28,370 nucleotides of DNA from the IMG/VR virus record IMGVR_UViG_3300010885_049282, positions 1 to 28,370 of that record. The stretch is one strand, 5' to 3'. The notes beneath the pieces were generated by a model. It was given only the letters and a program-made list of their open reading frames with translations. It was not told where the DNA came from and did no database searches. Position 1 is the first letter of the stretch, and every line of letters begins with the position of its first letter. Positions 7,184-28,368 of the stretch are shown here, piece after piece. Position numbers and translations under genes: made by a program. Source of the DNA: a virus.

Positions 7184-7210
7184 AAAAAAAATCCCCGCGC
7201 AAAGGCGGGG
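7184..7210 (-). terminator. Rho-independent terminator between the portal-side and scaffold-capsid genes
   Basis: On the minus strand, CCCCGC and GCGGGG (7205-7210 with 7093+100 to 7198) pair with a 6-base loop, followed by an A and a run of eight Ts (7184-7191). The pairing segments are 7205-7210 and 7193-7198. This separates terminase-portal transcription from scaffold-capsid transcription, so a promoter or antitermination must act downstream. Confidence 0.85.
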
Positions 7211-13393: not shown

Positions 13394-13597
13394 TCACAAA
13401 AACCGTTTCTTCATCCAACCCCTGTTCCATTCGGGACGGCCCAGGCGTGTCCAATGCACCACTTGGCTGGCGTGCGACTTATCCACCAACGGCGGCTCTG
13501 TCTCGCGCCATTTATCGGCGCAGAACTGACTGCACCACCGCCCGCGCCGCACTGGCACGCCGCAGAACTGACATTGTTTTTCGTTTTTTGATGTCAT
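13394..13597 (-). CDS. Small CxxC...CxxxC zinc-finger protein
   Basis: 67 residues. C9xxC12 and C22xxxC26, with basic residues between (CQFCGVPVRRGRWCSQFC), form a compact treble-clef-like zinc site. The rest is basic and aromatic (WKKRFL end). The start overlaps the DnaB stop (ATGA), so it is translated with the helicase. A role in replication or transcription is inferred from position only. Confidence 0.65.
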   Translation of the reverse strand: MTSKNEKQCQFCGVPVRRGRWCSQFCADKWRETEPPLVDKSHASQVVHWTRLGRPEWNRGWMKKRFL

Positions 13598-15207
13598 GGG
13601 ATGTCGTCGTCATCGATGATGGGAGGCTGTCTCAATACTTGGTTCTCGCGCTCGCCGTCCTTGAGCTGCTCGCAGCCGTGCTGGACTTTGAACAGATGCC
13701 AGTCCTCGAACTTGGTCAGGTTCGTGAAGAATACTTCCTTGGCATGGCCGAGCGGGCCATAGCGGTTCTTGGCCACCACGATCTCCATGAGCTTGGGCTT
13801 CTTGCTCCAGTCCCACCCTGCGGTGATGCGCTCCATGACGTCCTCGTCTGTCTCGCCGTCGCCCTGTTTCTTGAACTTGGTCGCCGGCTTGTTCAGGAAC
13901 AGGATGACGTCCGCGTCTTGCTCCAGCGCGCCGCAGTCCTTGAGGTCGGACATGACGGGGCGGCGGGTCTTCTCGGAGGTCTCGATGTTGCGGTTCATCT
14001 GGGCCAGGACAATCCACGGGACTTTAAGTTCTTTCTTCAAACGCATTATGCCGCGTGAAATTTTCGTGAGCTCTTTGACTCGGTCGATGCCCTTGCCGTC
14101 CTCGATCTCGACGAGTTGCACGTAGTCTAGGATGAATAGTTTGATGCCCTTCTCGCGCGCAATCTGTCGTGCCTTGGCGGCGATCTGGCTGATGGTCTGG
14201 CCGGGGGTGTCGTCTACATACACCTGCGCGGCGCTGAGCTTTCCGGCGACCTTGATGAGGTTGGTGTTGTCCTCGGCGCTGGCGAATCCCTGGCTGAACT
14301 CTGCGGTGTCCACGCCGGCGCGGCCGAACAGCAGACGGTAGCCGAGGCTGGTGCTGTCCATTTCTATGCTGAACACGGCCACAGGAATACCTTTTCGCTC
14401 GAGGGTCTCCGGGTATTCCTCGTTGGTCTCGTGGTTGAGCAGCTTGTTGCCTGTCGGCTCGTGCCACACGTAGTCCATGGCGAGGTGTTCGAGTATGTTC
14501 ATGGCCTTGGTGGTCTTGCCGTCGCCCGGGCGGCCCGCCAGCACCATGTAGTAGGTCTCGCGGATGCCGCGGATGAGCTTGTCCAGGTAGACGCCGTTCG
14601 GTCCGGTGGGAAGGCCGCGGAGCTGTGTCTTGCCCCGCACGTAGCGGAACTCTTCCATGTCGGTGATGACGTCCTGCACGATGTCCCGCATGGGCTTCCA
14701 CGCGGTCTCGGCCTGACCCACGGTCGCGAGCTCTAGGAGTTCGCCCGAGGCGTCGGCGATGACCTTGCCGACGTCATCTGCCTCGAGCGCGCGGCGCTGT
14801 AATTCACCGCACTTGTTCACGAATGCTCTTACGAGCGCCTTGCCGCGCACGACGCCGGCGTAGTGCGCTAGGTTCACGGCAGACGTGACGCTGTCCTGCA
14901 GCTCGTTGAGGTAGGTGACGCCGCCGATGTCTTCGAGCGTGCCGCCGTCCTTGAGGGTCTGCTGCAGGGTGATGATGTCCACGGGCCGGTTGGCCTCGCG
15001 CAGCTTCAGCATGCCCTCGAACACCGTGCGATGCCGTAAGTCGTAGAAGAATTCGGGGTCGAACTTCTGCGCGGCCAGCTTGTCCAGGGACGCGGCGGCT
15101 GAGCCCATGACGTCCAGCACGCACCCCAGAATGCCCTGCTCGTCTGGAGAGGAGTGAGGCGGTAGGCGGTCCGGAGGTGATTGGCTTAAAGCGCTCACTC
15201 GTTGCAT
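13594..15207 (-). CDS. dnaB: Replicative DNA helicase, DnaB family
   Basis: 537 residues from the ATG at 15207; the open frame runs further upstream but lies inside the neighbouring gene. Residues 15-125 match the DnaB N-terminal domain (FYDLRHRTVFEGMLKLREANRPVDIITLQQTL...GGVTYLNEL). The RecA-like motor has Walker A AGRPGDGKT at 224-232, IPVAVFSIEM at 274-283, Walker B LFILDYVQL at 357-365 and DLKDCGALEQDADVILFL at 421-438. An insertion of about 25 residues (248-273) separates Walker A from the next strand. The hexamer unwinds DNA at the phage fork. The start overlaps the initiator-like gene by 13 bases, in keeping with joint synthesis of loader and helicase. Confidence 0.9.
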   Translation of the reverse strand: MQRVSALSQSPPDRLPPHSSPDEQGILGCVLDVMGSAAASLDKLAAQKFDPEFFYDLRHRTVFEGMLKLREANRPVDIITLQQTLKDGGTLEDIGGVTYLNELQDSVTSAVNLAHYAGVVRGKALVRAFVNKCGELQRRALEADDVGKVIADASGELLELATVGQAETAWKPMRDIVQDVITDMEEFRYVRGKTQLRGLPTGPNGVYLDKLIRGIRETYYMVLAGRPGDGKTTKAMNILEHLAMDYVWHEPTGNKLLNHETNEEYPETLERKGIPVAVFSIEMDSTSLGYRLLFGRAGVDTAEFSQGFASAEDNTNLIKVAGKLSAAQVYVDDTPGQTISQIAAKARQIAREKGIKLFILDYVQLVEIEDGKGIDRVKELTKISRGIMRLKKELKVPWIVLAQMNRNIETSEKTRRPVMSDLKDCGALEQDADVILFLNKPATKFKKQGDGETDEDVMERITAGWDWSKKPKLMEIVVAKNRYGPLGHAKEVFFTNLTKFEDWHLFKVQHGCEQLKDGERENQVLRQPPIIDDDDIP

Positions 15208-16073
15208 CCTTGAACGGAATCCAACTCGGCCATGAGTTTTTCGACCGCAAGTTTTTCGGCGCGGTAGTCCTGCCCTAAAGCACGCATGTTTTCGACCTCG
15301 GCGCGGCCCGCACGGATGGCGGCCTGCAGCGCAGCCACGCGCTTGCCGTCCTGAATGGCCTGCACGTTGGCGGATAGCTCGGAGACGTTCGGCGAACCTT
15401 TTTCGCCGCCGTTTTTCCATTTTTTGGCGCGGACGTCTTCCTCGAACCAGACGATCCAGAGCCGTTGCCAGCCGATGAGCCGGCCGTTGCGCTCCCAGCC
15501 GTTGTTTCCGGTGGTCATGAGCCACTTGCGCTCAGCCCAGTCCGGATGCACCCGGCCACTGGCGGTAGCCCAGGTCCTGACCTCCTCGATGCTGGGTATC
15601 GACACCTCGCGGAATTGAGCGAGCGCCTCTTTCGTTTCATTCCGTTCCGTTCCGTTCCGTTCCGTTATGGAGTCGGTAACAGACTCGCTGCTGGTATCGC
15701 TGGCGGCATCGGAGTGCGATTCGGAGTGCGATGTTGTCTCAGGTTTTTTACCCCAGCGGCGCTTGTTTCCTATGATGCCGCCGCGGCGCTTGGCGCGGGT
15801 CTCTTTTTCGGCCTGCTCGGGGTAGAAGTTCACGACTAGGTCGTCTCCGTCCCATGCCCAGAGTTCGGTGGCGCGTGTCACTTCGTCGGCGGTGACCTTG
15901 GCGAGCTGTTGCCAGCGGCGATCTGCCCACGCCCGACACCCGGAAATGATCCCGCCGTTCTCCTGACCGCAGCAAAACGACAACAGCGCCAGCCAGGTGG
16001 CCCGCTCGATGGGTTCTGCGCCCACAAACTCCGCGCCGTCCAAGACGCTCCGGTGGATGTTTATGTATTCCAT
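15195..16073 (-). CDS. Replication initiator or helicase-loader-like protein
   Basis: 292 residues from the ATG at 16073 (MEYINIHRSVLDG). The N-terminus (20-105) has the look of phage replisome-organiser winged-helix domains: 'RATWLALLSFCCGQENGGIISGCRAWADRRWQQLAKVTADEV'. A low-complexity linker of Ser, Thr, Asp and a TERNGTERNETK repeat follows. The C-terminal half (about 160-215) has a 'RTWATASG...HPDWAERKW' segment like the DNA-binding part of primosomal proteins. A final coiled coil ends the protein. Position just before dnaB supports loading of that helicase. Exact family is not proven. Confidence 0.7.
   Translation of the reverse strand: MEYINIHRSVLDGAEFVGAEPIERATWLALLSFCCGQENGGIISGCRAWADRRWQQLAKVTADEVTRATELWAWDGDDLVVNFYPEQAEKETRAKRRGGIIGNKRRWGKKPETTSHSESHSDAASDTSSESVTDSITERNGTERNETKEALAQFREVSIPSIEEVRTWATASGRVHPDWAERKWLMTTGNNGWERNGRLIGWQRLWIVWFEEDVRAKKWKNGGEKGSPNVSELSANVQAIQDGKRVAALQAAIRAGRAEVENMRALGQDYRAEKLAVEKLMAELDSVQGCNE
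15641..15665 (-). repeat. (TCCGT)5 microsatellite inside the initiator-like gene
   Basis: Five perfect copies of a five-base unit. The unit length is not a multiple of three, so gain or loss of one copy would shift the frame. It encodes the ERNGTERNE linker, a kind of repeat often seen between domains of phage replication proteins. Confidence 0.85.
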
Positions 16074-16626: not shown

Positions 16627-17340
16627 TTAAATTGGTCCGCCGACTGAGACCCCCCCCCCCGCCTCCGTCGTCCCGGCCGCTCCGCCAGCGCCGGCGGCAA
16701 TCTCCACCACCCGACCCAATCCGACCGCGTCTCCTGGCATTACCTCAACAGCATCACTGGCAGCATCAATCACATCAGAAATCTCTTTTTGTTGGCGTTT
16801 TCCATCATTTGCACATAATGCCGTATCAACCGACGCCCGCTTCATGCTTGCCAGCTTGGCCTCGAAGTCGGCCACGCTGCCGCCTTGGACCGTGTGGCGG
16901 TGCTCGATCACCAGGGACGGATCACCATCGAGCGCGGCCTTTTTGTCGCTGAATATCCCGAACGACACGGGTATTTGCCCCACCGGAACAGCACCGGCGG
17001 CCAGCGCCTCCTCGTATCGGTCGGCTGACATCTTCAGGATTCTTCCGATCTGCCCGCTCAGCTGTTTCTTTTCTATGGCTACCAAATCGGGCCGAGCATC
17101 CCGCAGCGCAGACACCAAGTGATGCGACACTCCGAATGCCCGAGCGATCCGGAGCAGCCCATGTCCTTCGGCCAACGCCCGGCAAATCGCATCCCGCTTG
17201 GCCGTGTCCCTGGCCAAACTGACCGCCGTGTATTGGCGGCGCATCTCTGGCTGATCCAGCGTGAGCAACCGCAGTTCGTCCTCCGCGAACAGCGACGGCT
17301 GCCCCGACATCAACTCTTTGGAATCCTCAGACATGACCAT
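16627..17340 (-). CDS. Helix-turn-helix protein, terminase-small-subunit-like
   Basis: 237 residues from the ATG at 17340; an ATG at 17334 would give 235. The frame is open upstream but overlaps the winged-helix gene. The HTH (KRDAICRALAEGHGLLRIARAFGVSHHLVSALRDARPDLVAIEKK) is followed by helices and 'VGQIPVSFGIFSDKKAALDGDPSLVIEHRH', a pattern seen in phage HTH proteins related to terminase small subunits. The last 35 residues are Gly/Ala-rich and end just after an 11-base G run. Its position before replication genes, not next to TerL, fits a regulator as well. Confidence 0.65.
   Translation of the reverse strand: MVMSEDSKELMSGQPSLFAEDELRLLTLDQPEMRRQYTAVSLARDTAKRDAICRALAEGHGLLRIARAFGVSHHLVSALRDARPDLVAIEKKQLSGQIGRILKMSADRYEEALAAGAVPVGQIPVSFGIFSDKKAALDGDPSLVIEHRHTVQGGSVADFEAKLASMKRASVDTALCANDGKRQQKEISDVIDAASDAVEVMPGDAVGLGRVVEIAAGAGGAAGTTEAGGGVSVGGPI
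16650..16660 (-). repeat. 11-base poly-G tract (minus strand) near the end of the HTH gene
   Basis: Eleven consecutive Cs on the plus strand, eight codons before the stop of the HTH gene. One G fewer changes the C-terminus to SQSADQFKKRDGLAR and a new stop. One G more opens a frame that runs through the next gene's start. Such tracts are slippage-prone in replication and in sequencing. Confidence 0.9.
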
Positions 17341-17596
17341 TTTGAAAAAACTGCGGGGTGGTGTGGACTTGATGGGCGCGCTGCCAGCCCGAGATGGCTT
17401 CAGCCGAAATAAACCAACGACCACCATCGAAAAAAACCGGCCCGAATTCGCCGCGCTTGAACGAATCCTTGATCCACCGAGCACAGCGGCCGGGGAAAAA
17501 CCGCTCCCGCACTTGAGCCACCGTGAACACCGGCAACGGCTCCGACAGCGTGGCCGCCTGCGTCGTAGCATCGAGGAGCGCGCGACGGGCCATCAT
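17327..17596 (-). CDS. Small winged-helix protein, excisionase-like
   Basis: 89 residues from the ATG at 17596, which overlaps the previous stop (ATGA) and has GGAGG upstream. Residues 23-70 (PVFTVAQVRERFFPGRCARWIKDSFKRGEFGPVFFDGGRWFISAEAISGWQRAH) follow the MerR/Xis layout: helix, turn, helix, wing with GGRW, helix. It could be the excisionase that reverses integration, or an early regulator. The long frame extending to 18013 is not used because three better-supported starts lie inside it. Confidence 0.7.
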   Translation of the reverse strand: MMARRALLDATTQAATLSEPLPVFTVAQVRERFFPGRCARWIKDSFKRGEFGPVFFDGGRWFISAEAISGWQRAHQVHTTPQFFQNGHV

Positions 17597-17960: not shown

Positions 17961-18254
17961 TTAGGCAGCGCTGACGTGGGGATTGAAGCCGCCAGTAGAA
18001 GAAGGGGCGGCAAGACCCACCGTGCCCCGATTTGACCCCGGCAAGGTCAGCGCCGCCAAAATATCCGCCGCCGTCGTGCGAGACTCAGCCAGCCAGCCGG
18101 CCAACGTCGTCGGCCTGAACGACGCAGTCTGGACCACGAAACAATCCGGACAAATCCCGTGCGATATCAACGCGCCGGCGGGCACGATGGGCGCGTTGAC
18201 AAACACTTGCCCAGCAAACCACCGCGAGCAATACGCGCAACAATGAGCACTCAT
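17961..18254 (-). CDS. Small zinc-binding protein in the early operon
   Basis: 97 residues. CxxC pairs at C6-C9 and C35-C38 form a probable zinc ribbon; the rest (TTLAGWLAESRTTAADILAALTLPG) is helical. AAGGAGGT lies four bases before the ATG, the strongest ribosome site in this block. Its start overlaps the RHH stop (ATGA). An early-gene or anti-host role is possible, but only zinc binding is supported. Confidence 0.65.
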   Translation of the reverse strand: MSAHCCAYCSRWFAGQVFVNAPIVPAGALISHGICPDCFVVQTASFRPTTLAGWLAESRTTAADILAALTLPGSNRGTVGLAAPSSTGGFNPHVSAA

Positions 18255-18424
18255 GCGACCTCCTTAATGCGCCTAGCGTCGCGATCCTGGAGGATCAGAA
18301 ATTCGAGGTAGTTCGAGAAACTGCGACAGTCTCGGCGGGCGAGGTCTAGCCCTATCGGGACTATGTCCTGTGAAAGTGAGATTTGCTTGCGCGCTTTGCC
18401 CTTAGTCCGTTTGCGTTGACTCAT
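18251..18424 (-). CDS. Ribbon-helix-helix regulator (leftward, first gene)
   Basis: 57 residues starting MSQRKRTKGKARKQISLSQD. A basic N-terminus precedes a beta strand (KQISLS), then two helices (DIVPIGLDLARRDCR and SFSNYLEFLILQDRDARR), the MetJ/Arc/CopG layout. Dimers of this fold insert the strand in the major groove. It is the first gene of the leftward unit and probably represses its own or the divergent promoter. There is no Shine-Dalgarno site and the predicted transcription start is about five bases upstream, so the message is nearly leaderless. The gene was found by direct translation. Confidence 0.8.
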   Translation of the reverse strand: MSQRKRTKGKARKQISLSQDIVPIGLDLARRDCRSFSNYLEFLILQDRDARRIKEVA

Positions 18425-18435
18425 CGTAGAGCCAA

Positions 18436-18463
18436 ATTAAACACCTCGCACAGCAATCGTCAA
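18436..18463 (-). promoter_or_regulatory. Leftward sigma70-like promoter
   Basis: On the minus strand: -35 TTGACG (18458-18463), 16-base spacer, -10 TTTAAT (18436-18441). Predicted start is about 18429, five bases before the RHH ATG at 18424. Confidence 0.65.
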
Positions 18464-18470
18464 CAAATAT

Positions 18471-18476
18471 GTGTAT
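18471..18476 (+). promoter_or_regulatory. GTGTAT half-site upstream of the leftward promoter
   Basis: GTGTATAAA, eight bases upstream of the leftward -35 and 33 bases from the palindromic site (about three helical turns). It shares its core with sites at 18504-18518 and 19410-19415. Confidence 0.45.
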
Positions 18477-18484
18477 AAAAATGC

Positions 18485-18512
18485 TTGTCGCGTCGGCTTA
18501 TTGGTGTATTCT
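18485..18512 (+). promoter_or_regulatory. Rightward sigma70-like promoter
   Basis: -35 TTGTCG (18485-18490), 16-base spacer, -10 TATTCT (18507-18512). It drives the DUF6573-like gene and those after it. The -10 lies inside the inverted repeat 18504-18518. Confidence 0.55.
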
Positions 18513-18518
18513 ATACAC
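18504..18518 (+). promoter_or_regulatory. Palindromic operator candidate
   Basis: GTGTATTCTATACAC: perfect 6-base arms with a 3-base centre, covering the -10 of the rightward promoter. Binding here would block rightward transcription. RHH dimers commonly bind such short inverted sites. Confidence 0.6.
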
Positions 18519-18572
18519 ACAAAGGCGTCAGCAGCCTTGAAAACATTGAGCAAAACAACAACACCAAAAAAC

Positions 18573-19037
18573 ATGAAAACACAAACAATCGAAGACGAAA
18601 ACAGCATGGAATCCCTATTTGGAGAAGTTATGAGCACCTATTCACGCGCCCAAGGCATCCAAGACGGCGTTCTGGTGGACGTGTCCGATGCCCTCACGCC
18701 ATGCCCCTTCAAATATCCCGTCGCCATGAGCCGAGCAGCCTACGAAGCCACCATTGCCATCGGCGGCGAATGGGTGGCCATAGAAAACCCCACGGATGAC
18801 ATGATCGAGAAATTGCAGTTGCCCGGCGGCCAAGACGTGGCAGGACGATTGCATGACGTCTTCAGCATGGCACTGGAGGCAATCCGGCGCGGCACGACCA
18901 CAGATCGCATCTGGTTCTCCGTCCTCGTCGACACCCACGGCAACGGGCGCAAAACCAAGGTCGATCTATATAGCGTCTGCGGCCCCGGCGACACCGCCGC
19001 ACCTGTCATCACCATCATGCTGCGTGGCGAAGACTGA
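18573..19037 (+). CDS. DUF6573-like protein
   Basis: 154 residues from the ATG at 18573, downstream of the predicted transcription start. A frame open to 18471 would begin upstream of it. Later starts are possible at 18606 and at 18630, where GGAG lies five bases upstream. The sequence LFGEVMSTYSRAQGIQDGVLVDVS...FKYPVAMSRAAYE...GRLHDVFSMALEAIR...WFSVLVD...VCGPGDTAAPVITIML matches the DUF6573 family, found in phages, plasmids and mobile elements. The family function is unknown. It is the first rightward gene, so it is expressed early or in the lysogen. Confidence 0.75.
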   Translation: MKTQTIEDENSMESLFGEVMSTYSRAQGIQDGVLVDVSDALTPCPFKYPVAMSRAAYEATIAIGGEWVAIENPTDDMIEKLQLPGGQDVAGRLHDVFSMALEAIRRGTTTDRIWFSVLVDTHGNGRKTKVDLYSVCGPGDTAAPVITIMLRGED

Positions 19038-19100
19038 CCCGCGTTCGCCGGGGCTGACAACGGCCACCGGCGACCGCGCGCCAGTAACGCGCCTACTACC

Positions 19101-19298
19101 ATGACCAAAAAAAATTGCGAAACACTCATCGAAGTCCTGACCCGTCAGAGCGCGGATTGCGCCCTGCACGCAGATCAAGCGGGCCAAGACCACCAACCCC
19201 ACGAGCAAGCATTTCAGACCGGCGCATCCCAAGCATTCCGGCTGGCCATCGAATACACCAAAGACGCCCTAGCCGGCATCCTCACCACCGCAAAATAA
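19101..19298 (+). CDS. Small hypothetical protein
   Basis: 65 residues (MTKKNCETLIEVLTRQSADCALHADQAGQDHQPHEQAFQTGASQAFRLAIEYTKDALAGIL...). It is helical, with several His and Gln residues and no membrane segment. The start is 63 bases after the DUF6573-like gene, with no Shine-Dalgarno site. It is accepted for its composition and place in the unit. Confidence 0.55.
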   Translation: MTKKNCETLIEVLTRQSADCALHADQAGQDHQPHEQAFQTGASQAFRLAIEYTKDALAGILTTAK

Positions 19299-19304
19299 AC
19301 ATTA

Positions 19305-19394
19305 ATGAAAATTGAAACAAAAGAACACCTAGAGAGCGCGGCCATAGCCCTGTGCTTCTGGCTCTTATTCCTTGCAGCAGTTGTGCTAGTTTGA
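19305..19394 (+). CDS. 29-residue single-span membrane peptide
   Basis: A polar N-terminus (MKIETKEHLES) is followed by an unbroken hydrophobic helix (AAIALCFWLLFLAAVVLV) to the stop. It starts six bases after the previous gene. The stop codon lies inside the -35 box of the next promoter. Peptides of this shape insert in the inner membrane; a lysis or signalling role is speculative. Confidence 0.5.
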   Translation: MKIETKEHLESAAIALCFWLLFLAAVVLV

Positions 19395-19418
19395 CACCTG
19401 CACCAAAATGTGTATACT
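19391..19418 (+). promoter_or_regulatory. Sigma70 promoter of the second RHH gene
   Basis: Consensus -35 TTGACA (19391-19396), 16-base spacer, TATACT -10 (19413-19418) preceded by TGTG. The predicted start is about 19425-19426, at the GTG start codon of the gene. Confidence 0.75.
19410..19415 (+). promoter_or_regulatory. GTGTAT half-site over the second RHH promoter
   Basis: GTGTATAC overlaps the -10 element. It shares its core with the elements in the divergent region, which suggests that one regulator, perhaps this RHH protein itself, controls all three promoters. Confidence 0.45.
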
Positions 19419-19425
19419 GTAGAGC

Positions 19426-19737
19426 GTGAAAACTCGTATCCAAGTCAGCATCCACCCCGAACTGGTCCAATGTGCCCATGACAATATGGCCGTGCGCAAA
19501 TACTCCTCGTTCAGCGCATACCTAGAAACGCTGATCCGCGAAGAATACGCGCGCACCACGGCCAAAACGGCGAGCCTCGCTCCCAGCCCCGCCTTCGAGG
19601 CTATTTGGAACGCCTCGGTAGCCGCTGCGAGCGCGAGCGCCGCACAACTTCCAAAGCAGCAATTAATTCTGACAAAAGAATCCGAAGCTGCTCCTGAGAA
19701 AGAGAAGAAACTTGGGAAGAAACAACGGAAGAAATAG
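19426..19737 (+). CDS. Second ribbon-helix-helix regulator
   Basis: 103 residues from a GTG. Residues 2-45 (KTRIQVSIHPELVQCAHDNMAVRKYSSFSAYLETLIREEYAR) form strand-helix-helix of the CopG/Arc type. A linker and a Lys/Glu-rich tail (EKEKKLGKKQRKK) follow, which could add non-specific DNA contact. No ribosome site is possible because the predicted mRNA begins at or just before the start codon; leaderless translation is likely. It has its own strong promoter, so it may be the lysogenic repressor. Confidence 0.75.
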   Translation: MKTRIQVSIHPELVQCAHDNMAVRKYSSFSAYLETLIREEYARTTAKTASLAPSPAFEAIWNASVAAASASAAQLPKQQLILTKESEAAPEKEKKLGKKQRKK

Positions 19738-19850
19738 AGTGACGAATGGGTGACTGCATAAATGTGATTAGTGATGTAACAATTACAGCCAACAAAAAAT
19801 CAGTCAACTGTAAATTTTGCTGCGGGGATAGATTTTTGAAACGGAAACAC

Positions 19851-20171
19851 ATGAAGACAAAAATGACAGCCATGGCACTTGTGATTGCGGCCACATCGTA
19901 TGCACTGAACAGCGAACCGAGTGCGCCAGCTGCCGTCTCAACGCCGGCGCGCTACACCCTGACCGCCGGTCCGATAACGTATGTAGACGGGGCACAGCTA
20001 ACCTTTCAGACCTTTGTGCGGATGGACACCACGACAGGGCAAGCGTGGATGATGCATTATGTGGTAAACAGCACCAACGCGCCCTTGCCGGAGTGGGTGC
20101 CCGTTCTCGAGCGATTTCCCAGCGTAGGCCCAACAGCATCAAAGGCGACACAAACTAACGCAACCCGTTGA
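19851..20171 (+). CDS. Small exported protein, possible lysogenic conversion gene
   Basis: 106 residues from the ATG at 19851 (MKTKMTAMALVIAATSYALN), chosen because it begins a clean signal peptide; the frame is open to 19746. The mature part (ARYTLTAGPITYVDGAQLTFQTFVRMDTTTGQAWMMHYVVN...LPEWVPV) is beta-rich with a DTTTGxxW motif seen in small periplasmic or secreted proteins. Placed next to repressor and integrase, it is likely expressed in the lysogen and may alter the cell envelope, for example in superinfection exclusion. That role is inferred. Confidence 0.6.
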   Translation: MKTKMTAMALVIAATSYALNSEPSAPAAVSTPARYTLTAGPITYVDGAQLTFQTFVRMDTTTGQAWMMHYVVNSTNAPLPEWVPVLERFPSVGPTASKATQTNATR

Positions 20172-20202: not shown

Positions 20203-21594
20203 ATGAAACCATCATTTACGCAAACCCCTGAAAATCAAAGGCGAATAGCCACAACACTCTGCGATGACAGTGTTTCTGTGGGTATTTTGCGCTTGCCACC
20301 TATGCGCAAGGTGGAAGAATCGACACCTCTCAGCACCATGTCAACAGCATCAAAGACAGCATCAACAGCAGCAGAGAAGTTTTATTTGCCCTACGGCGGT
20401 AGGCGCTGGCGCATCTTCAAGCGATCCACCTCTCCGAACTGGTATCTGGTGTTTCAGCGCGCCGGCAAACGATACCTGCTCAGCCTGGGCGCGACGAAGG
20501 AGACCGCCATCTCCGCCGCCAAGGTCAAGATACAGGCGTGGACCGAGGACCGTTTAGACGTTTTGCGGAAATCGATGGAGAGGCCCGGAGAGAAACAGTA
20601 TTCCACGCTCACCGAGTTCCTCACCGCGGCCAAGGCCGTGCCCTGTGGCAAGGAGGCATCGCGGCTCGAGGGATGCAACAAAATGAGGCTCGTCGTGAAA
20701 CGCGCTGGGCGTGATCCAGACACGGCGACCACTGCGGTGTTTGGCGACTCCACCGCCGCAGATTATTTCCGCCACATCGAGACCCAGGCGGCTGGCATCA
20801 ACAACCAGAAAGACAAGTCGCGTTTCATAAATTCAGCGATCTCCACGTTCATAGGGGCAAATGCCTTGCTTGCGGCCAACAAACTCCGGCATTACGAAGG
20901 CATCCGTCTGCCCGAAATGACGTCGTTTCGCGAGGCGCTACGCAGGAGCGGACTGAAACTACGCCGCACGGTAAAGTGTGACCCTTCTTGGCCGCTGATC
21001 CGCGACCTGTTCCGGGAATGGATCAAACTCGGCAAACGCTCCGACTACACTCCAGCGGCCGACCGTTGTGAGTTTGACCGGAGAAACGTGTGGCTTGCCA
21101 TGTCTATGGAGCTGACGTTTGGCCTGCGAATCAACGAAGTGCGCCAGGTCCGATGGGAATGGTTCACGGACGACGCCTACGGTCCGGTGTTGCGCGGTGA
21201 TGCCCTCGTCAAGAACGGCAGCGGCGAGCTACGCATGACCCCGCTCAATCCCTTCTGGAGGATATTTAATCTGATCCTCGACGCAAACGGATGGCGGAAG
21301 ACGTCTGGGCCGCTGCTCGAAGGCGACTGCATCAGCCGCACGCGCGACTACCCTTTCAAGCACATCGGAGCCATCCTACGCCGTGCGGGCTGGCAGACGC
21401 AGAAGACAAACCACGCGCTCCGGGATTTATCGGCGTCGCTCATCACCACCAAGTTCGGGGCGCAGAAGGCGCAGTGGTGGGCACGGCACAGCAGCGTCAC
21501 CACCACCGAGGCGCACTACTCGCGGTTTGTCGATCAGCGCGCCGCTCTCACGAGCGAGAACGTATTGCCCTGGCTACACTTCGCGAAGCGGTGA
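20203..21594 (+). CDS. int: Tyrosine recombinase, phage integrase
   Basis: 463 residues from the ATG at 20203; the true start may be ATG 20302 or 20338 (MSTASKTAST), as no clear ribosome site marks any. An N-terminal arm/core-binding region (60-250) precedes the catalytic domain. The catalytic set is visible: R309 in GLRINEVRQVRW, H404 and R407 in HALRD, H429 in ARHSS and nucleophile Y439 in AHYSRF. The enzyme joins phage and host DNA at att sites. It is the last rightward gene and overlaps the convergent 53-residue gene by 21 bases. The attachment site was not identified. Confidence 0.9.
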   Translation: MKPSFTQTPENQRRIATTLCDDSVSVGILRLPPMRKVEESTPLSTMSTASKTASTAAEKFYLPYGGRRWRIFKRSTSPNWYLVFQRAGKRYLLSLGATKETAISAAKVKIQAWTEDRLDVLRKSMERPGEKQYSTLTEFLTAAKAVPCGKEASRLEGCNKMRLVVKRAGRDPDTATTAVFGDSTAADYFRHIETQAAGINNQKDKSRFINSAISTFIGANALLAANKLRHYEGIRLPEMTSFREALRRSGLKLRRTVKCDPSWPLIRDLFREWIKLGKRSDYTPAADRCEFDRRNVWLAMSMELTFGLRINEVRQVRWEWFTDDAYGPVLRGDALVKNGSGELRMTPLNPFWRIFNLILDANGWRKTSGPLLEGDCISRTRDYPFKHIGAILRRAGWQTQKTNHALRDLSASLITTKFGAQKAQWWARHSSVTTTEAHYSRFVDQRAALTSENVLPWLHFAKR

Positions 21595-21735
21595 CCGGCG
21601 GCCATGCGCCCGGCTCACGACCACGCCGGACTCGGCCAGCACTTGCTCGTCGTAGAACAGTTTTGCGCGTTTTTTGCCTTTGGGGACAATTCGCTTGATG
21701 CGCTGCCGCACCTCGTGGTCACGCTTGGTGATCAT
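21574..21735 (-). CDS. 53-residue basic protein, convergent with integrase
   Basis: Starts MITKRDHEVRQRIKRIVPKGKKRAKLFYDEQ, strongly basic, helical start and short beta segment. The start overlaps the phosphoesterase stop (ATGA), so translation is coupled. Its last codons overlap the integrase gene on the other strand. Likely binds nucleic acid because of its charge; no family was recognised. Confidence 0.6.
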   Translation of the reverse strand: MITKRDHEVRQRIKRIVPKGKKRAKLFYDEQVLAESGVVVSRAHGRRSPLREV

Positions 21736-22754
21736 AACAGCTGACCGTTCAAGAGGCGCAGCGGCGTCACGCTGAACTGGCCGCGGGTCAATTCGACGAA
21801 CGCGGCCGAGTGCGTCCACTTGTTCACCCGGGCATACCGAGGCCACAGACCGCACAGACAGCCTGTGGACCAGGTCGTGATGAGTTTGCCGTTGGCCGTG
21901 GTCTCGGAATGCTGGCTGTCCTTGTGCAGGTGTCCCTGCAGACCGCATTCAATGGTCCGCATGAACAGGCCGCGCGCCGGGTTCACCGGCGGGGCGATGC
22001 TCCCCTTGCCGAGCTCGTGCCCGTGGTAGATGTTCAGCTTGCCGATCATTATCTTCTGCTGATCGTCCAGCCATTCGATGCCTTTTACGCCCTGCACGGA
22101 ATCTATTTTGGCGGTCGTCAGATGCTTCAGGCTGACGCCCGTGACGCCGTAGAGCTCCGGCGCTTTGCGGAACAGATATTTGTCGAACCACTCGTCGTGG
22201 TTGCCCAACTTGTAGACGATGCGCGCTTTGGGAAATGTCTGCCGCAACCACCCAAGGAACTGCCGCGTCAGGTCCAACTCTTTTTTAAGCGAGGACTCCG
22301 TGGGATTTTTATCAAACCGGGAAATCGAAAAGAAATCGCACAGATCGCCATTGATGAGGATGCAGTTGGGATTGAGTGTTTTGCTGCGCTCGATGACGGC
22401 CTCGATGGCCGCACGGTCGTGGAACGGAATATGGATATCCGACAAGATGAGCGTGCGTGAGGTATCCAGATGCACCGGCGCGTAAGACGGAGCGGACGAC
22501 TTTGGAAACTCCCAGACAAAACCTGCGAGCGAACAGGGACGCACCAGGGGACTGTTTGTCACGCGTTTTCGGTGCTCATTGCCGCGGTTGCCGCGGCGAT
22601 ATGTGACCGCGCATCTTGCCGCTTCCAACGACGGAAACAACCTCCTATGTTTTTTATACAGCACCCGCGCGAGCGTGAGTGATGGCAAGTCTTTGAACTT
22701 GGCGCACGCGGCCCTTACGATCTCCGACTTCTCCTTGCTTTTGATTTGCAGCAT
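21732..22754 (-). CDS. Calcineurin-like metallophosphoesterase
   Basis: 340 residues from the ATG at 22754 (MLQIKSKEKSEIV); the frame is open to 22874, overlapping the virion gene. The metal-binding motifs are complete and in order: D-x-H (DIH 106-108), GD (136-137), GNHDE (184-188), HGHE (244-247) and GHLH (274-277). The N-terminus (LARVLYKKHRRLFPSLEAARCAVTYRRGNRG) is typical of phosphoesterases in phages and their relatives. The two-metal site cleaves phosphodiesters or phosphomonoesters; the substrate is unknown. Possible roles are nucleic-acid processing or removal of host nucleotide signals. Confidence 0.85.
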   Translation of the reverse strand: MLQIKSKEKSEIVRAACAKFKDLPSLTLARVLYKKHRRLFPSLEAARCAVTYRRGNRGNEHRKRVTNSPLVRPCSLAGFVWEFPKSSAPSYAPVHLDTSRTLILSDIHIPFHDRAAIEAVIERSKTLNPNCILINGDLCDFFSISRFDKNPTESSLKKELDLTRQFLGWLRQTFPKARIVYKLGNHDEWFDKYLFRKAPELYGVTGVSLKHLTTAKIDSVQGVKGIEWLDDQQKIMIGKLNIYHGHELGKGSIAPPVNPARGLFMRTIECGLQGHLHKDSQHSETTANGKLITTWSTGCLCGLWPRYARVNKWTHSAAFVELTRGQFSVTPLRLLNGQLL

Positions 22755-22845
22755 GATTTTTGTTTGTTTCCCCAATCGATCCCGTCGTAGTTCGATTTGA
22801 ACTGCGGCGAGAAACAGCTGCGCGGTGATGAGCCCTTGCCGTTCT

Positions 22846-25800
22846 TCATTGGAGGATGGCCTGTTTTTGAGCAAGACGCTCGAGGTGCTGCTGGGCCGCC
22901 GCGCGGCCGCCCGACATCAGCGCGCCAAATGCCTCAGAGATGTCCGTCACTGGCGTAGACTCGGCCACCGACTTTATGCGCTCGAGTTGCAAAGTTCGCG
23001 CGAGGTCGCTGCCGCGGTTGAACTTTTTGTCGAGGTGATCCAGATAAGAGGACGCGATCCAGTGGTTGAGGTTATCAGGTCCGGGCGACTTCTGGGCGAG
23101 ATCGAACTCCGCTTGGGCTCGAAGCTGCTTATGGATCGCCACGTGAGAGACTGGGCCGGAGGCCGGCAGGAAACTTGCAAGGCGAGCCTTCGCCATGCCT
23201 TTGCCAGATGTGGAAGATTTTACACCGACCACATTTCCGCCGCGCTGGTGGGGATTGCCCCCGGCAGTTCGTCCGGTATTTCCGCCACCACCTCGGGATG
23301 CAGCGGGAACTCTGGAATCTCGCCCTGGAACATTGCGGCCACCCAACTGGACTTGGTCACCGGCAGCCCGTGGCGGCGTATCCAACCATGCAGGGGGGTT
23401 GATTCCGCCGGCGTGTTCAATGATTTGTTTTCTAAGTTCATTGGCAGTTGTTTCTCCTTTAGAATACTTCTTCCAGGCCGCTTTTGTCAAGTCCTTAAGC
23501 CCACCCCGTTTTGCCACCGCCGTGAACAATCCGCGCACAGCTTCCCATGTGATTGACTGCAATTCGCGGGGCAAAATGCCCAGTTCACCCGCAAGTTCAA
23601 TATAGGCTTCAGCATAGACCGGATACGTTCCACCTAATCCTGATGCTTTACTTTTTGATCCACTCATCGATGCTTTGACTTCCGGTGAAGTTCCACTGAG
23701 CGGCTCTAGCAACGCCGCTGCGTTGGCGTGGGTGTCGATGGTTACATACTTTCCGGGGCTATTTGGATTGGAAATGTTGTTAAAGAAATTGCGCACCTTG
23801 TGTTGGCCTCCCAATTGCCGGGAAATATTTGCCAGACTTCCATCGCTCAAGATTTCTAACGCCTTGCGAATTGTGCCGTAGTGTCCCCATGAAATTCTGG
23901 ATTCATCGCCGCCAAGGTTTCGAACCATTGGACCAAGATCGCCTTCGGGCGTCACAGCTTCGAATCGCGGAGAGTTGGTGGTCTCGTCCACCGCCCGCAA
24001 GAAGATCGCTTGCCCGTCTCGATCCATCGACTTCCAGTTTTTGTTCTGATAGTCCTTCCGGTTCGTTCCCCAAATTTTATCGAACTGCCGTTCCAGCGCG
24101 GCCGCCTTCTCGGGTGATTTCTTCTTGGCATCTTCCAAGCCAACGCGCGCGCGCTGGATAGCGTGATCCAGCAACTCCGGCGTGAATTGGGCATTGGTCT
24201 GCAAAAGTTTTTGGTTCAGCGCAATCACCCGCTTGCCGAGCGACACATTTTTGAACCAGTCCATCTGCGGCGACAGAACCGCCATGACTCCGGCCGTCTG
24301 TTCGTTGGTGAGTTTATATTCGCCGGCCAAATCGGTGACAATGCGGTTTGCGCCGTCATACCAAAGTTTGGCGCGCGCCCGCCATTCGGGTGGGTAATTG
24401 TCATAAAGGAACCGCAGGTTGTCCTTGGCCATGTCGATGAAACTGCGGATCACTTTGTCGGGATTTCGCAGTTGCTTATCGGAGGCTGTCAGGTGGGGAT
24501 ACTGGCGCAGTTCGGCGGCGATCTTCCCTTTATAGGACACGTCTTCATTGAGGGCGTCTAGGTCGGCGTTGAGAATAGCGCTGCGGGGTTTGGCCAGCAT
24601 GCCGGCGGGTTGCCGGGTGGAAACCGTGGCGCGACCATCTTCAAAGCCGGCCGGGGCAAGCTCCGTGCCAGCCTCAATCTTCGCTGGGAGAAACTGTGCG
24701 CCGGAAGTGATCTCTTTGCCGGCGTAGAACCGGCGAATCTGGCCTTCAATTTTTGCCGCTTTCGTTCCCTCATCCCACCACTGACCTGAGTTTCGTTTTC
24801 CATCGTAAACATCCAACGACACAGCCCCATTGTTGTGCTCGATCACTTCCCTGATGCGCGCCCACTGACTCGCGGTGGGGCGTTGGCGGATATCCAACAA
24901 GCCTTGGCCCGTGCGAATCGCCCCCAAGGATAAAAATTGTTCCATGGCGGCATCATTCGCTCCGCTCCGGCTCGGCCGATTTTTGTATTCAACCTCCCGG
25001 TGGTCGACTTGACGGTTGCCTCTGAGATAATCCGGCTGCCCGCGCTTTGGCCCGAACGCATATTTTCCCGTGCGCTCATACCCCATTGCCTGCGCGCGCC
25101 CGGAAAAGTCTAGGAGCTCTCCGTTCGGCAGGATGTAGCCTGCTTCATCAATGCGCTGGGTCACCCCGTGATTCCTTTTGGCCGAGTCGAAAATTAGCGC
25201 CGGATTTGGCGGCAGCAGTTGTGCGCCGCGCTGGTCTGACGCATTTTCAGGCGACATAAAATTCGCCTTCTGCAACTCGTAACGGATCGGGAACTTGTCG
25301 CCTGCGCCGGGCGTGATGCGGTTGATGCGGTCAAATCTTCGTGCGCGGATCAGGTTGTCTTTGTCGCCTCGAGTGCTGAGCTGCACCGGGTTCACGTCCT
25401 CGTTGCCCACGCCCTTTGGCACATTGAAGAAATCGTTGATCACGTTCTTTTTGTGGACCGCGGCGGCGGCGTCCGCGTCTAGGTTGACAGCGCCGGATCG
25501 TCCTGCCACGTGGTTGTCCAGATACGTGAACACGTCACGCATGAACGCATCGATGTCGCCGTTCCAGGCGTCGAACGCCTTGGGCTTGGTGGCCTTCCAC
25601 TGGCCCAGCTTCCGTGAGAAGTGTGCCGTGTCCAGCGTGGTCATATAGAAATTGCCCGCTTTCGAGATGTTGAATGTCAGGGGCACGGCCGCGCGCGTCG
25701 TGGGCGAGATGCCGCTGGAATACTTGCCGCCCTTTAGCGCGGCGTTGTAGTCGATTATGATCTGCTGTCCGTCTAGGCTGGCCAGTTCGTTGAGCTGCCG

Positions 25801-28368
25801 CAGCTTGGTCTTCATGGCCGGGGACAGGACATCGTCCGGTAGGGCGTCGAACGCCGCGAGCTGTTCCTCGGAAAACCGTCGTCCCTCCCACGCGCCGTTT
25901 GACTTGAGTGTGACGCTGTTCGGATCGCCTAGGCTGGGCAGCTTGGTCAGCGCATCGATCATGGCGTCCACGCGCCGGGTTTGGATCGCACGGATTTCGC
26001 GCTCGCTTAATAGCACCGGCACACCGCCCATCATCTTGACGCTGCCGTCTGGGTTCTTGGCAAAGATGTCGTGGTCCTTGAACGTGTCGATGAGGCCAGC
26101 ATTGTTTTGGCTTAGCAGGTCCTGCGGCCGCACCACCAGGTGCGGCTCTTCCGCGCCGTCGCCCGAGACAAGCCGGCGCGTCATGTTGTCCTTGGCCCGT
26201 AGGTAATCGCGCAGCGCAGCGTCCACGACGGGCGTGTTGGTGATGGGCTTGCCGTTCTTGACAAACAGTTCGCTCGGGTCACCGCTGCCGTCGAATTTGA
26301 CGCCCACGGCCTCGAGTGAGCGTCGCATCTTGCCGAGCATCGAGTCCGACTCGGCCAGCAGCAGCGCGTCCGCCACGCGCCGCTTGACGTTTCGGCTGCC
26401 CAGCACGCTGTCTGCGGACGGCGCGCCGTTCATGAGGTTTGCAAACGATTCCGATCGCACCTCAGACATGATCCTGGCGCTGCGGTCCTCGGGCGTGAGC
26501 AGGTCGAATTCGGCCTTGGCCTTGACGTTGAGACGGTCGCGGTATTGGCTGGTGAATTCGGCGAGGTCCGGCGCGCTATAGAGGCCCTTGCTGACCACAC
26601 GGCCGTCCGGCAGCGTCTGGTCGAACAAGATTCGGTTGAGCGCCTGACGTTGCGGGGCAAACCCATCGAGCGCGTCCAGGGCGTGCATCGTCTCGTGGAA
26701 CATCGAGCGTGATCCCGTGTATCCGGTGTTGACGAACACCACGGGTTTGTCCCCGTTGAGCAGCTGAGCGCCCTTGCCCACGCCGAACAGTTCGGTGAAT
26801 GTCTTGTCGGTGACGTAGCGGAACTCCACGTCCTGACCGCTGCCCTTGGCAAGGCGTTCCGTGTCCATCATGTTGACCGAGGCCTCGCGCGACAGCTTTA
26901 GGTTGGCGATGTTGGCGACCTCGTCCGGGCTTTTACGCGCGAGCCAGTTGGACAGGTCTCTGATCTGCAGCTCCTCGTTGTAGGCGCGCCCGCCCACCAC
27001 GCGTCCGAGCAGGCCCGCTCCAGAGCCGAGCGCTAAGCCCGATCCGAACCCGGCCGCTGCGCCCTCTTCGCCGTCACTGACTGCGCCCAAAACCGTGCCG
27101 ATGGCAGCACCCTCTGCTCCGCCCTTCACGGCGGATCCGGCCAAAGATGCCGCGCCGTCAAGCGGCTTGGCGGCGTTGGCGGCGCGCTTGAGCCACTCCG
27201 GTGAGGCCGCGTCCTTGCTGATGCGGTCGAACAGACCGTATCGGGACGGGCCTTCGCCCACGGACCGGCCCGCGGCGGCGGCGGCCTCGCCCACGCCCTG
27301 GATGGTTCGTCCGGCCACCTTGCCTCCGGCAATAGCCGCCGCGGTCTCGGTCAGTCCTGGCACACTGAGCCCGGCCGCACCCAGCGCGGCGGTGGGCAGG
27401 CTGCCGCGTTTGACCACGTTCTGGGCCGCCTTGCCCGCCTCGGCGCTGCCGGACAGCCATTCCACACCGCGTCCGGCCAGACGTTCCGGCAGTGCAGCCG
27501 CCTTGCTCACGGTCTCGCCGACCACCTCTGCTGCGCGTCCGCCCTTCTGCAGGACCTGTGCTACGGCGCCACGAGCCAACGAGTTTGCCGGGCTCATCGC
27601 CTTTCCAAACGGGACAAGCGCCATCGGGCTTGCGACGAGACTTACGCCCTCGGATAGGGCCGGATGGATGGCCGCCTCTTGGCCCGTCAGCACGCTGACA
27701 TTGCTCGCGGACCGCGCCATCTCCTCCACGGCGGTGGCGCGCTTGGCTAGTAAGTTTTCGTATTGTGTCTGGGGCACGAAGTCGTCGTCGTATTCCTTGC
27801 GCCACTGAGAGATCGTGGCGGCGGGAACGTCGCCGGCGGACTGCATTTGATTAAAGTTCTGCGGCGTCAATGGCTGGCCGTTGAGCGCGGCGTCGCGCAG
27901 CTGCACGCGTTTCATTTCGGCAAACTGGTCAAAGTTCACGATTCCGTCCGCGCCCCAGGACGACGGCAATAATTTTTTGGCGAGCTCCATGTCGCGCAGT
28001 GTGCCGCGCGCGACGCCCTCCGCGCCAGTCAGCAGCGGGTCATACTTCTCCGGGTCGCGTGCGGTTTCGTAGAGGCCTACGGCAGCGCGCTTGCCGGTCT
28101 CGTAGAGTCCCACGGCCGCGTTGCCCGCGGCGTTGGCAAAGTCTCCGACGTGCTGGCCTATCGAGCGGGCCTTAAGCGCGGCATGATAAACCTTAGATTC
28201 GGCCAAAGACGGCTTGTAGTTGGGATCAAGAAAGCGCTGAGCGATCTCGTCAGGATGTGCCGGCGAGGCCTCGTCCATGAACTCCACGCCGGGGGAATCC
28301 GCGCCCTCTATCCACGAGACACCGCGTTGCGTTTCGGGGGCGACTTCATCAATAAATTCGACGGCCAT
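22846..28368 (-). CDS. 1840-residue polyvalent virion protein, probably ejected
   Basis: The start ATG lies two bases from the window edge. The N-terminus has two related motifs, VEFIDE (3-8) and VEFMDE (28-33), and a short tandem AAVGLYET (84-101). Residues about 220-480 are Ala/Gly-rich and amphipathic or membrane-active, as in internal virion proteins. HETMHALD at 558-565 is an HExxH metallopeptidase-like site. Residues about 1300-1615 (FLYDNYPPEWRARAKLWYDGANRI...AVLSPQMDWFKN...DTHANAAALLEPL) resemble a domain found in large phage proteins (DUF7178-like). A Gly/Arg-rich disordered stretch follows (about 1660-1740). The protein is probably packaged and injected with DNA, to protect or process it. 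It lies upstream of the phosphoesterase. Confidence 0.7.
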   Translation of the reverse strand: MAVEFIDEVAPETQRGVSWIEGADSPGVEFMDEASPAHPDEIAQRFLDPNYKPSLAESKVYHAALKARSIGQHVGDFANAAGNAAVGLYETGKRAAVGLYETARDPEKYDPLLTGAEGVARGTLRDMELAKKLLPSSWGADGIVNFDQFAEMKRVQLRDAALNGQPLTPQNFNQMQSAGDVPAATISQWRKEYDDDFVPQTQYENLLAKRATAVEEMARSASNVSVLTGQEAAIHPALSEGVSLVASPMALVPFGKAMSPANSLARGAVAQVLQKGGRAAEVVGETVSKAAALPERLAGRGVEWLSGSAEAGKAAQNVVKRGSLPTAALGAAGLSVPGLTETAAAIAGGKVAGRTIQGVGEAAAAAGRSVGEGPSRYGLFDRISKDAASPEWLKRAANAAKPLDGAASLAGSAVKGGAEGAAIGTVLGAVSDGEEGAAAGFGSGLALGSGAGLLGRVVGGRAYNEELQIRDLSNWLARKSPDEVANIANLKLSREASVNMMDTERLAKGSGQDVEFRYVTDKTFTELFGVGKGAQLLNGDKPVVFVNTGYTGSRSMFHETMHALDALDGFAPQRQALNRILFDQTLPDGRVVSKGLYSAPDLAEFTSQYRDRLNVKAKAEFDLLTPEDRSARIMSEVRSESFANLMNGAPSADSVLGSRNVKRRVADALLLAESDSMLGKMRRSLEAVGVKFDGSGDPSELFVKNGKPITNTPVVDAALRDYLRAKDNMTRRLVSGDGAEEPHLVVRPQDLLSQNNAGLIDTFKDHDIFAKNPDGSVKMMGGVPVLLSEREIRAIQTRRVDAMIDALTKLPSLGDPNSVTLKSNGAWEGRRFSEEQLAAFDALPDDVLSPAMKTKLRQLNELASLDGQQIIIDYNAALKGGKYSSGISPTTRAAVPLTFNISKAGNFYMTTLDTAHFSRKLGQWKATKPKAFDAWNGDIDAFMRDVFTYLDNHVAGRSGAVNLDADAAAAVHKKNVINDFFNVPKGVGNEDVNPVQLSTRGDKDNLIRARRFDRINRITPGAGDKFPIRYELQKANFMSPENASDQRGAQLLPPNPALIFDSAKRNHGVTQRIDEAGYILPNGELLDFSGRAQAMGYERTGKYAFGPKRGQPDYLRGNRQVDHREVEYKNRPSRSGANDAAMEQFLSLGAIRTGQGLLDIRQRPTASQWARIREVIEHNNGAVSLDVYDGKRNSGQWWDEGTKAAKIEGQIRRFYAGKEITSGAQFLPAKIEAGTELAPAGFEDGRATVSTRQPAGMLAKPRSAILNADLDALNEDVSYKGKIAAELRQYPHLTASDKQLRNPDKVIRSFIDMAKDNLRFLYDNYPPEWRARAKLWYDGANRIVTDLAGEYKLTNEQTAGVMAVLSPQMDWFKNVSLGKRVIALNQKLLQTNAQFTPELLDHAIQRARVGLEDAKKKSPEKAAALERQFDKIWGTNRKDYQNKNWKSMDRDGQAIFLRAVDETTNSPRFEAVTPEGDLGPMVRNLGGDESRISWGHYGTIRKALEILSDGSLANISRQLGGQHKVRNFFNNISNPNSPGKYVTIDTHANAAALLEPLSGTSPEVKASMSGSKSKASGLGGTYPVYAEAYIELAGELGILPRELQSITWEAVRGLFTAVAKRGGLKDLTKAAWKKYSKGETTANELRKQIIEHAGGINPPAWLDTPPRAAGDQVQLGGRNVPGRDSRVPAASRGGGGNTGRTAGGNPHQRGGNVVGVKSSTSGKGMAKARLASFLPASGPVSHVAIHKQLRAQAEFDLAQKSPGPDNLNHWIASSYLDHLDKKFNRGSDLARTLQLERIKSVAESTPVTDISEAFGALMSGGRAAAQQHLERLAQKQAILQ

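Follow-up and report, generated by a model that had tools for sequence, protein, structure and literature searches.

The phage locus analysed here has two early transcription units that run away from each other, and it raises the question of which regulators set the one against the other. An earlier note on this DNA had proposed an Arc/Mnt-like switch, in which two small ribbon-helix-helix (RHH) proteins, here termed RHH1 and RHH2, flank a divergent promoter pair and run the main early switch in place of a Cro/cI-type HTH pair. We followed up this proposal computationally in the window, i.e. the whole stretch of DNA under analysis, which is the complete IMG/VR record IMGVR_UViG_3300010885_049282 of 28,370 nt; the record is linear and the phage extends past both of its ends.

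Gene order and promoters of the early region

The genes on which the argument rests are listed below.

10165-11895, minus strand: terminase large subunit (packaging), a name given by homology
13594-15525, minus strand: DnaB helicase (replication) of the leftward unit, Pfam E = 9.9e-62
17961-18254, minus strand: 97-aa protein with CxxC pairs, overlapping the RHH1 stop by 4 nt
18251-18424, minus strand: RHH1, 57 aa, ORF at the head of the leftward unit, by sequence a paralogue of RHH2, assigned with AlphaFold2 and Foldseek
18573-19037, plus strand: DUF6573 protein (PF20213, E = 4.7e-19), first gene rightward
19101-19298, plus strand: 65-aa ORF of the rightward unit, without significant match in family searches
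19426-19737, plus strand: RHH2, 103 aa, predicted N-terminal RHH and a charged low-confidence tail, assigned from the ORF, AlphaFold2 and the orthologue in the relative G001
20203-21594, plus strand: tyrosine integrase, 3' of RHH2, PHROG integrase E = 3.3e-6

Both ORFs that had been proposed as RHH genes were recovered in the ORF listing at 18251-18424 and 19426-19737, and RHH1 is indeed the first leftward gene, with a 4-nt overlap with the next one. The early region reads RHH1 (minus strand), the divergent promoters, DUF6573, the 65-aa ORF, RHH2, a small ORF and the tyrosine integrase, in whose sequence the catalytic set R309, H404-x-x-R407, H429 and Y439 is present. In the leftward unit, RHH1 comes first, and the unit also includes the DnaB helicase, a terminase-like protein and further genes for packaging and the head, whose names are drawn from homology and gene order; homologues of the terminase include a protein of Phage C75C1 that directly precedes its capsid genes, and were found at about 100 viral loci. 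The RHH genes therefore do lie on opposite sides of the divergent promoters, as claimed, but RHH2 is not adjacent to them, with DUF6573 and the 65-aa ORF intervening; in the divergent pair itself, the leftward gene is RHH1, but the rightward one is DUF6573 (18573-19037) and not RHH2.

The phage, which is uncultivated and tailed, is probably temperate, the integrase alone pointing to lysogeny. No prophage or host was found in scans of 84,980 species genomes with the integrase and the terminase, scans that reach relatives matching short conserved peptides. The terminase of another IMG/VR record, L025 (7253 bp), is identical to the one in the window. The interval between RHH2 and the integrase holds a 141-aa ORF (19746-20171, plus strand), which is maybe secreted from an inner start, has no counterpart seen in G001 and is a possible lysogenic conversion gene. 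At the end of the contig lies a 1840-aa polyvalent protein with DUF7178 (22846-28368, minus strand), preceded by a metallophosphoesterase at 21732-22874. Within the leftward unit, a terminator-like hairpin with a T-run at 7193-7210 (minus strand) separates portal-side from scaffold-side genes, so that the late genes may need more than the RHH1 promoter alone.

The layout of the window is the same in its close relative G001 (IMGVR_UViG_3300037493_002835), with identities of 95% for RHH1, 94% for DUF6573, ~57% for RHH2, 71% for the integrase and 85% for the 97-aa protein. The distant relative G003 (27% identity for both terminase and integrase) carries RHH1, DUF6573, RHH2 and the integrase in the order of the window. 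In G008, also distant (terminase 60%), RHH1 and RHH2 are directly divergent, and no related integrase was found. An RHH1-like gene is present in L029, and an RHH2-like gene near the integrase of L115. RHH genes were undetectable in the other terminase relatives, which confines the switch to a subset of them. DUF6573 was dropped as a marker of the system, as it is present without RHH genes in G002 and G006; at L114:8569-9366 it forms the C-terminal portion of a longer protein.

Three promoters serve the two RHH genes and DUF6573 in the window.

18436-18463, minus strand: RHH1 promoter, TTGACG-N16-TTTAAT, predicted leader of ~5 nt
18485-18512, plus strand: rightward promoter to DUF6573, TTGTCG-N16-TATTCT, predicted leader of ~55 nt
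19391-19418, plus strand: RHH2 promoter, TTGACA-N16-TATACT, predicted leaderless transcript from a GTG start

The claim that RHH2 has a consensus promoter of its own was confirmed, since TTGACA-N16-TATACT agrees with 11/12 consensus positions (sigma-70-like); it is the best match within 15-24 kb, and RHH2 begins 8 nt past its -10 box. The distance from the end of the -10 box to the start codon is 7-12 nt for the RHH genes in the window, G001, G003 and L029, the values for G003 presupposing inner start codons in both genes, and the RHH mRNAs are on this account predicted to be leaderless or nearly so. For DUF6573, the start codon lies 50-63 nt from the best-placed promoter; the rightward promoter of G001 is weak, and an alternative one is found there 32 nt before the DUF6573 start codon. 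In G008, the -10 box lies 10 nt from a leader ORF that precedes RHH2; this ORF, which has ~37 codons (L111:1519-1629) and overlaps the start of RHH2, is predicted to be near-leaderless, too. The lambda cI mRNA transcribed from PRM is likewise leaderless.

Paralogy and predicted fold of RHH1 and RHH2

By sequence comparison, RHH1 and RHH2 are paralogues: they share 44% identity over 36 residues (E = 2e-6), a search with RHH2 retrieves the RHH1 of a relative (E = 7.5e-4), and the comparison of their profiles gave P = 6e-5. In the predicted strand, the residues R, Q and S are common to both proteins (pattern R-x-Q-x-S).

The fold was approached by structure prediction. The AlphaFold2 monomer models, with modest pLDDT values of 69 for RHH1 and 65 for RHH2, consist of a short N-terminal stretch, to which no strand was assigned, and two helices at the RHH positions. 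The Foldseek neighbours of RHH1 were almost exclusively RHH proteins or plant TCP domains, every one of them with an E-value of at least 1; they include a MazE-type antitoxin, NikR, CopG, Arc, ParD, AtaR and Reg576, and most alignments had an rmsd of 1.2-3.5 A across 33-49 residues. The earlier assignment as RHH proteins hence stands insofar as helices and structural neighbours fit it, but the pLDDT of 65-69 is modest and the structural matches are not significant; on these models, both proteins likely have the RHH fold.

Searches with the sequences were less telling. Neither protein had a significant family match in Pfam, NCBIfam or PHROG, tblastn searches of phages and plasmids with the RHH proteins gave no signal over noise, and the PDB sequence search retrieved no RHH match, its top row (4hxt) being a designed repeat protein aligned past the RHH core. 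The RHH1-like homologue in L029 gave weak matches to the HicB and NikA RHH families, with E = 0.0013 for HicB PF05534, under the family cut-off.

A shared promoter word and its near-match at hicAB operons

The three promoters have one word in common, TGTGTATA.

18470-18477, plus strand: half-site A, TGTGTATA, abutting the RHH1 -35 box on its upstream side
18504-18520, unstranded: operator B, GTGTAT-TCT-ATACAC(AC), including the rightward -10 box (TATTCT), with minus-strand TGTGTATA at 18512-18519
19409-19416, plus strand: half-site C, TGTGTATA, overlapping the -10 box of the RHH2 promoter

Three copies of TGTGTATA occur in the window, against 0.18 expected, and none of 100 shuffles reached three; G001 also has three copies, placed at the corresponding promoters, and neither genome has the word elsewhere. 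The two copies of the divergent region face each other at 42 bp from start to start, i.e. about four helical turns. In an unbiased test for 8-mers that occur two or more times in the divergent region, one or more times before RHH2 and not elsewhere, TGTGTATA was the sole word to qualify, both in the window and in G001. The chance that any 8-mer qualifies was 0.14-0.3% (9/3000 and 8/3000 random placements, 7/5000 and 8/5000 shuffles). The footprint between the two genomes, which are related and whose agreement on the operators is not independent, consists of the retained blocks TGTGTATAAAA (site A, with diverged flanks) and GGTGTA.TCTATACACA, whereas the bases that separate the two TGTGTATA boxes are identical at 19/34 positions. 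Sites A and C are half-sites, and only B forms a full palindrome. GTGTAT alone was rejected as operator, as it is over-represented throughout the genome and thus unspecific.

The distant relatives carry variants of the word. At the place equivalent to site B, G003 has TGCATAA-TGG-TTATGCA, and G008 carries CTTGCATACTATTTCATAC twice. A TGYATA core, which was chosen after looking, is over-represented in the switch regions of the window, G001, G003 and G008; there is no copy of it at the RHH2 promoter of G003. As two of the three copies of GTGCATAA in G003 lie away from promoters, an exact set of GTGCATAA sites was rejected for this genome and the claim is limited to the palindrome at the divergent promoter. 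An 8-4-8 repeat in G003 (TGTCAAAT/ATTTGACA) was also rejected as operator, because it equals two back-to-back -35 boxes. The middle residue of the strand is T or S in G003 and G008, with TGCATA as half-site, which hints, from two cases only, that strand residue and half-site co-vary.

A search of the open literature turned up no paper with the operator string. In 2.9 million viral contigs of IMG/VR, site B (GTGTANTCTATACACA) was found at 38 loci besides G001. Six of these sites lie directly upstream of hicA, and these six are all the hicA genes detected in the 38 loci. In the control with a scrambled palindrome, hicA was present at 0/80 loci among the matches listed, and other phage loci amounting to 1.06 Mb had no hicA. 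The difference between 6/38 and 0/80 (80 being the matches listed) has a probability of 8e-4 in a simple comparison that includes some mutually related members of the six. All six hicAB operons (L124, L127, L132, L136, L138, L155) have TGTGTATTCTATACACA at their promoters, most of them together with a second copy or a half-site 30-45 bp upstream. PF15919 is matched by all five of the HicB proteins that were scanned, and three of these have RHH_1/RHH_5 matches in addition; the C-terminal strands of HicB read R-x-N/Q-x-S/T (R-V-N-M-T in L138), compared to R-x-Q-x-S in RHH1 and RHH2. RHH-class HicB is known to repress its own operon via palindromic operators (PMC10865869).

Taken together, the near-identity with the word at hicAB promoters, the strand pattern and the autorepression by HicB indicate that the TGTGTATA-containing word of the phage very probably serves as an RHH operator. 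Both this operator and the strand pattern R-x-Q-x-S are similar to the CopG/HicB side of the RHH fold, and RHH1 and RHH2 probably share the one DNA site, TGTGTATA. An RHH1 dimer would sit on GTGTATTCTATACAC, with contacts predicted from R12, Q14 and S16.

The near-identity of the phage operator with that of hicAB operons raises the question of cross-talk with toxin-antitoxin (TA) systems. It appears doubtful to us that the switch is wired into the TA control of the host such that the decision between lysis and lysogeny and the state of the TA system affect one another, a reading under which the phage RHH pair may derive from the RHH domain of HicB. If it held, the phage switch could be a target for RHH-type HicB from the host or from a co-resident element, and hicAB operons could be kept repressed by RHH1 and RHH2. 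The likeness to hicAB with RHH-type HicB extends to the operator, which is nearly identical (TGTGTATTCTATACACA), and to the strand pattern R-x-N/Q-x-S/T; in contrast, the phage switch has stand-alone RHH proteins, no HicA and no N-terminal (RNase H-like) domain of HicB, and the switch proteins gave no HicA or HicB match.

A two-repressor model, its alternatives and known switches

We consider it fairly probable that two paralogous RHH repressors read one set of operators and thereby set the rightward (lysogeny) unit against the leftward (lytic) unit. RHH1, expressed first in the lytic unit from the leftward promoter, would be the Cro/Arc-like member, and RHH2, transcribed separately from its own promoter as a leaderless or near-leaderless mRNA on the lysogeny side before the integrase, the Mnt/cI-like member. 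Dimers at operator B and site C would cover the -10 boxes from which DUF6573 and RHH2 are transcribed, and operators so placed imply that the rightward unit is repressed and that RHH2 represses itself. With these boxes blocked, RHH1 would turn off the lysogeny side in a Cro-like manner, and RHH2 would limit its own expression. Dimers at A and B, which lie on roughly the same helical face, would control the RHH1 promoter, where repression by RHH2 would silence the lytic unit. Protein binding, which protein prevails where, repression (not activation) at A, and lysogeny are what we infer in this model; site A sits upstream of the -35 box, and protein bound there could activate.

In agreement with the earlier note, no Cro/cI-type HTH pair was seen at the divergent region, nor was any single protein of this type among those scanned. 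The switch proteins had no HTH family match; the single match, weak and to HTH_23, belongs to a gene elsewhere (16627-17571, minus strand), which lies in the leftward unit near the switch and is conserved in most relatives mapped. That the RHH pair is the 'main' early switch is likely rather than proven, because the record lacks some of the phage genome.

It is conceivable, if rather unlikely, that a conventional repressor encoded outside the record, in the missing portion of the genome, holds immunity and that the RHH pair regulates itself locally to time the early genes and the integrase. Phage P22 shows just this split, with c2/cro for immunity and arc/mnt as second control, the record is linear with the phage running beyond both ends, and an HTH_3 gene lies near the RHH1-like gene of L029. 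On the other hand, RHH1 heads the replication unit and RHH2 is on the integrase side in the window, G001 and G003, the leftward genes of G008 beyond its polyvalent protein are of structural type (by position), and the scanned parts contain no HTH repressor.

Two further alternatives assign a different task to one of the proteins. RHH2 might be an accessory factor of integration or excision that bends DNA near attP and not a repressor, in keeping with its place upstream of the integrase in the window, G001 and G003 and near the integrase in L115. We regard this as very unlikely, given that the shared operator on the -10 box of its own promoter is the mark of an autorepressor and that RHH2 of G008 is directly divergent from RHH1, with no related integrase found. 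RHH1, in turn, might be an antitoxin paired with the overlapping 97-aa gene, the operators serving TA autoregulation; antitoxins often have RHH folds, the two genes overlap by 4 nt, and the operator equals that of hicAB. The 97-aa protein, however, has CxxC pairs and matches no known toxin, and a TA pair leaves unexplained both the operator at the RHH2 promoter and the place of RHH1 as first gene of the replication unit, which makes this reading highly improbable; as a toxin-antitoxin pair, RHH1 and the 97-aa gene found no support.

Compared to known systems, the proposed two-repressor switch is like Arc/Mnt of P22 (immI) in having two small RHH proteins astride divergent promoters, with one each for the lysogenic and the lytic side (PMC7549136). 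The designation as Arc/Mnt-like is borne out by this position of the RHH genes but not by kinship, for which hhalign gave a probability of <1%, and Arc and Mnt were absent from the P22 matches. In P22, Arc and Mnt control ant from separate operators, and c2/cro runs immunity; the pair of the window differs in heading the replication unit and the integrase side, with one operator word at three promoters. The direct divergence of RHH1 and RHH2 is seen in G008, whereas DUF6573 and a small ORF lie between them in the window.

The main keeper of the carrier state in the archaeal virus SSV1 is F55, an RHH protein of 55 aa, and an 11-nt word recurs there in several viral promoters, that of F55 included (PMC9608457). 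The phage studied here resembles it in the proposed RHH main regulation and the repeated promoter word; F55, in contrast, is a single protein of an archaeal virus with the word ATAGATAGAGT and no partner paralogue. The lysis-lysogeny system of the Bacillus prophage SP-beta includes YosL, predicted to be an RHH protein of the Arc type and thought to activate the lytic cycle, the master repressor being the non-RHH protein MrpR (PMC10516654). As far as the open literature that we searched goes, only F55 serves as main viral regulator of the RHH class, with side roles for Arc, Mnt and YosL. Viral switches controlled by RHH proteins are known, and the variant proposed here is a paralogous pair with one shared, hicAB-like operator in a bacterial tailed phage.

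To our knowledge, nearly all bacterial phage switches studied rely on HTH repressors. With lambda cI/Cro, the proposed switch shares its logic, i.e. two repressors, common operators and opposed promoters; it differs in the fold, and the window is without three-site OR/OL arrays. A conserved two-RHH switch with one operator word would, if true, be a compact alternative to cI/Cro, and the operator proposed here is a directly testable sequence.
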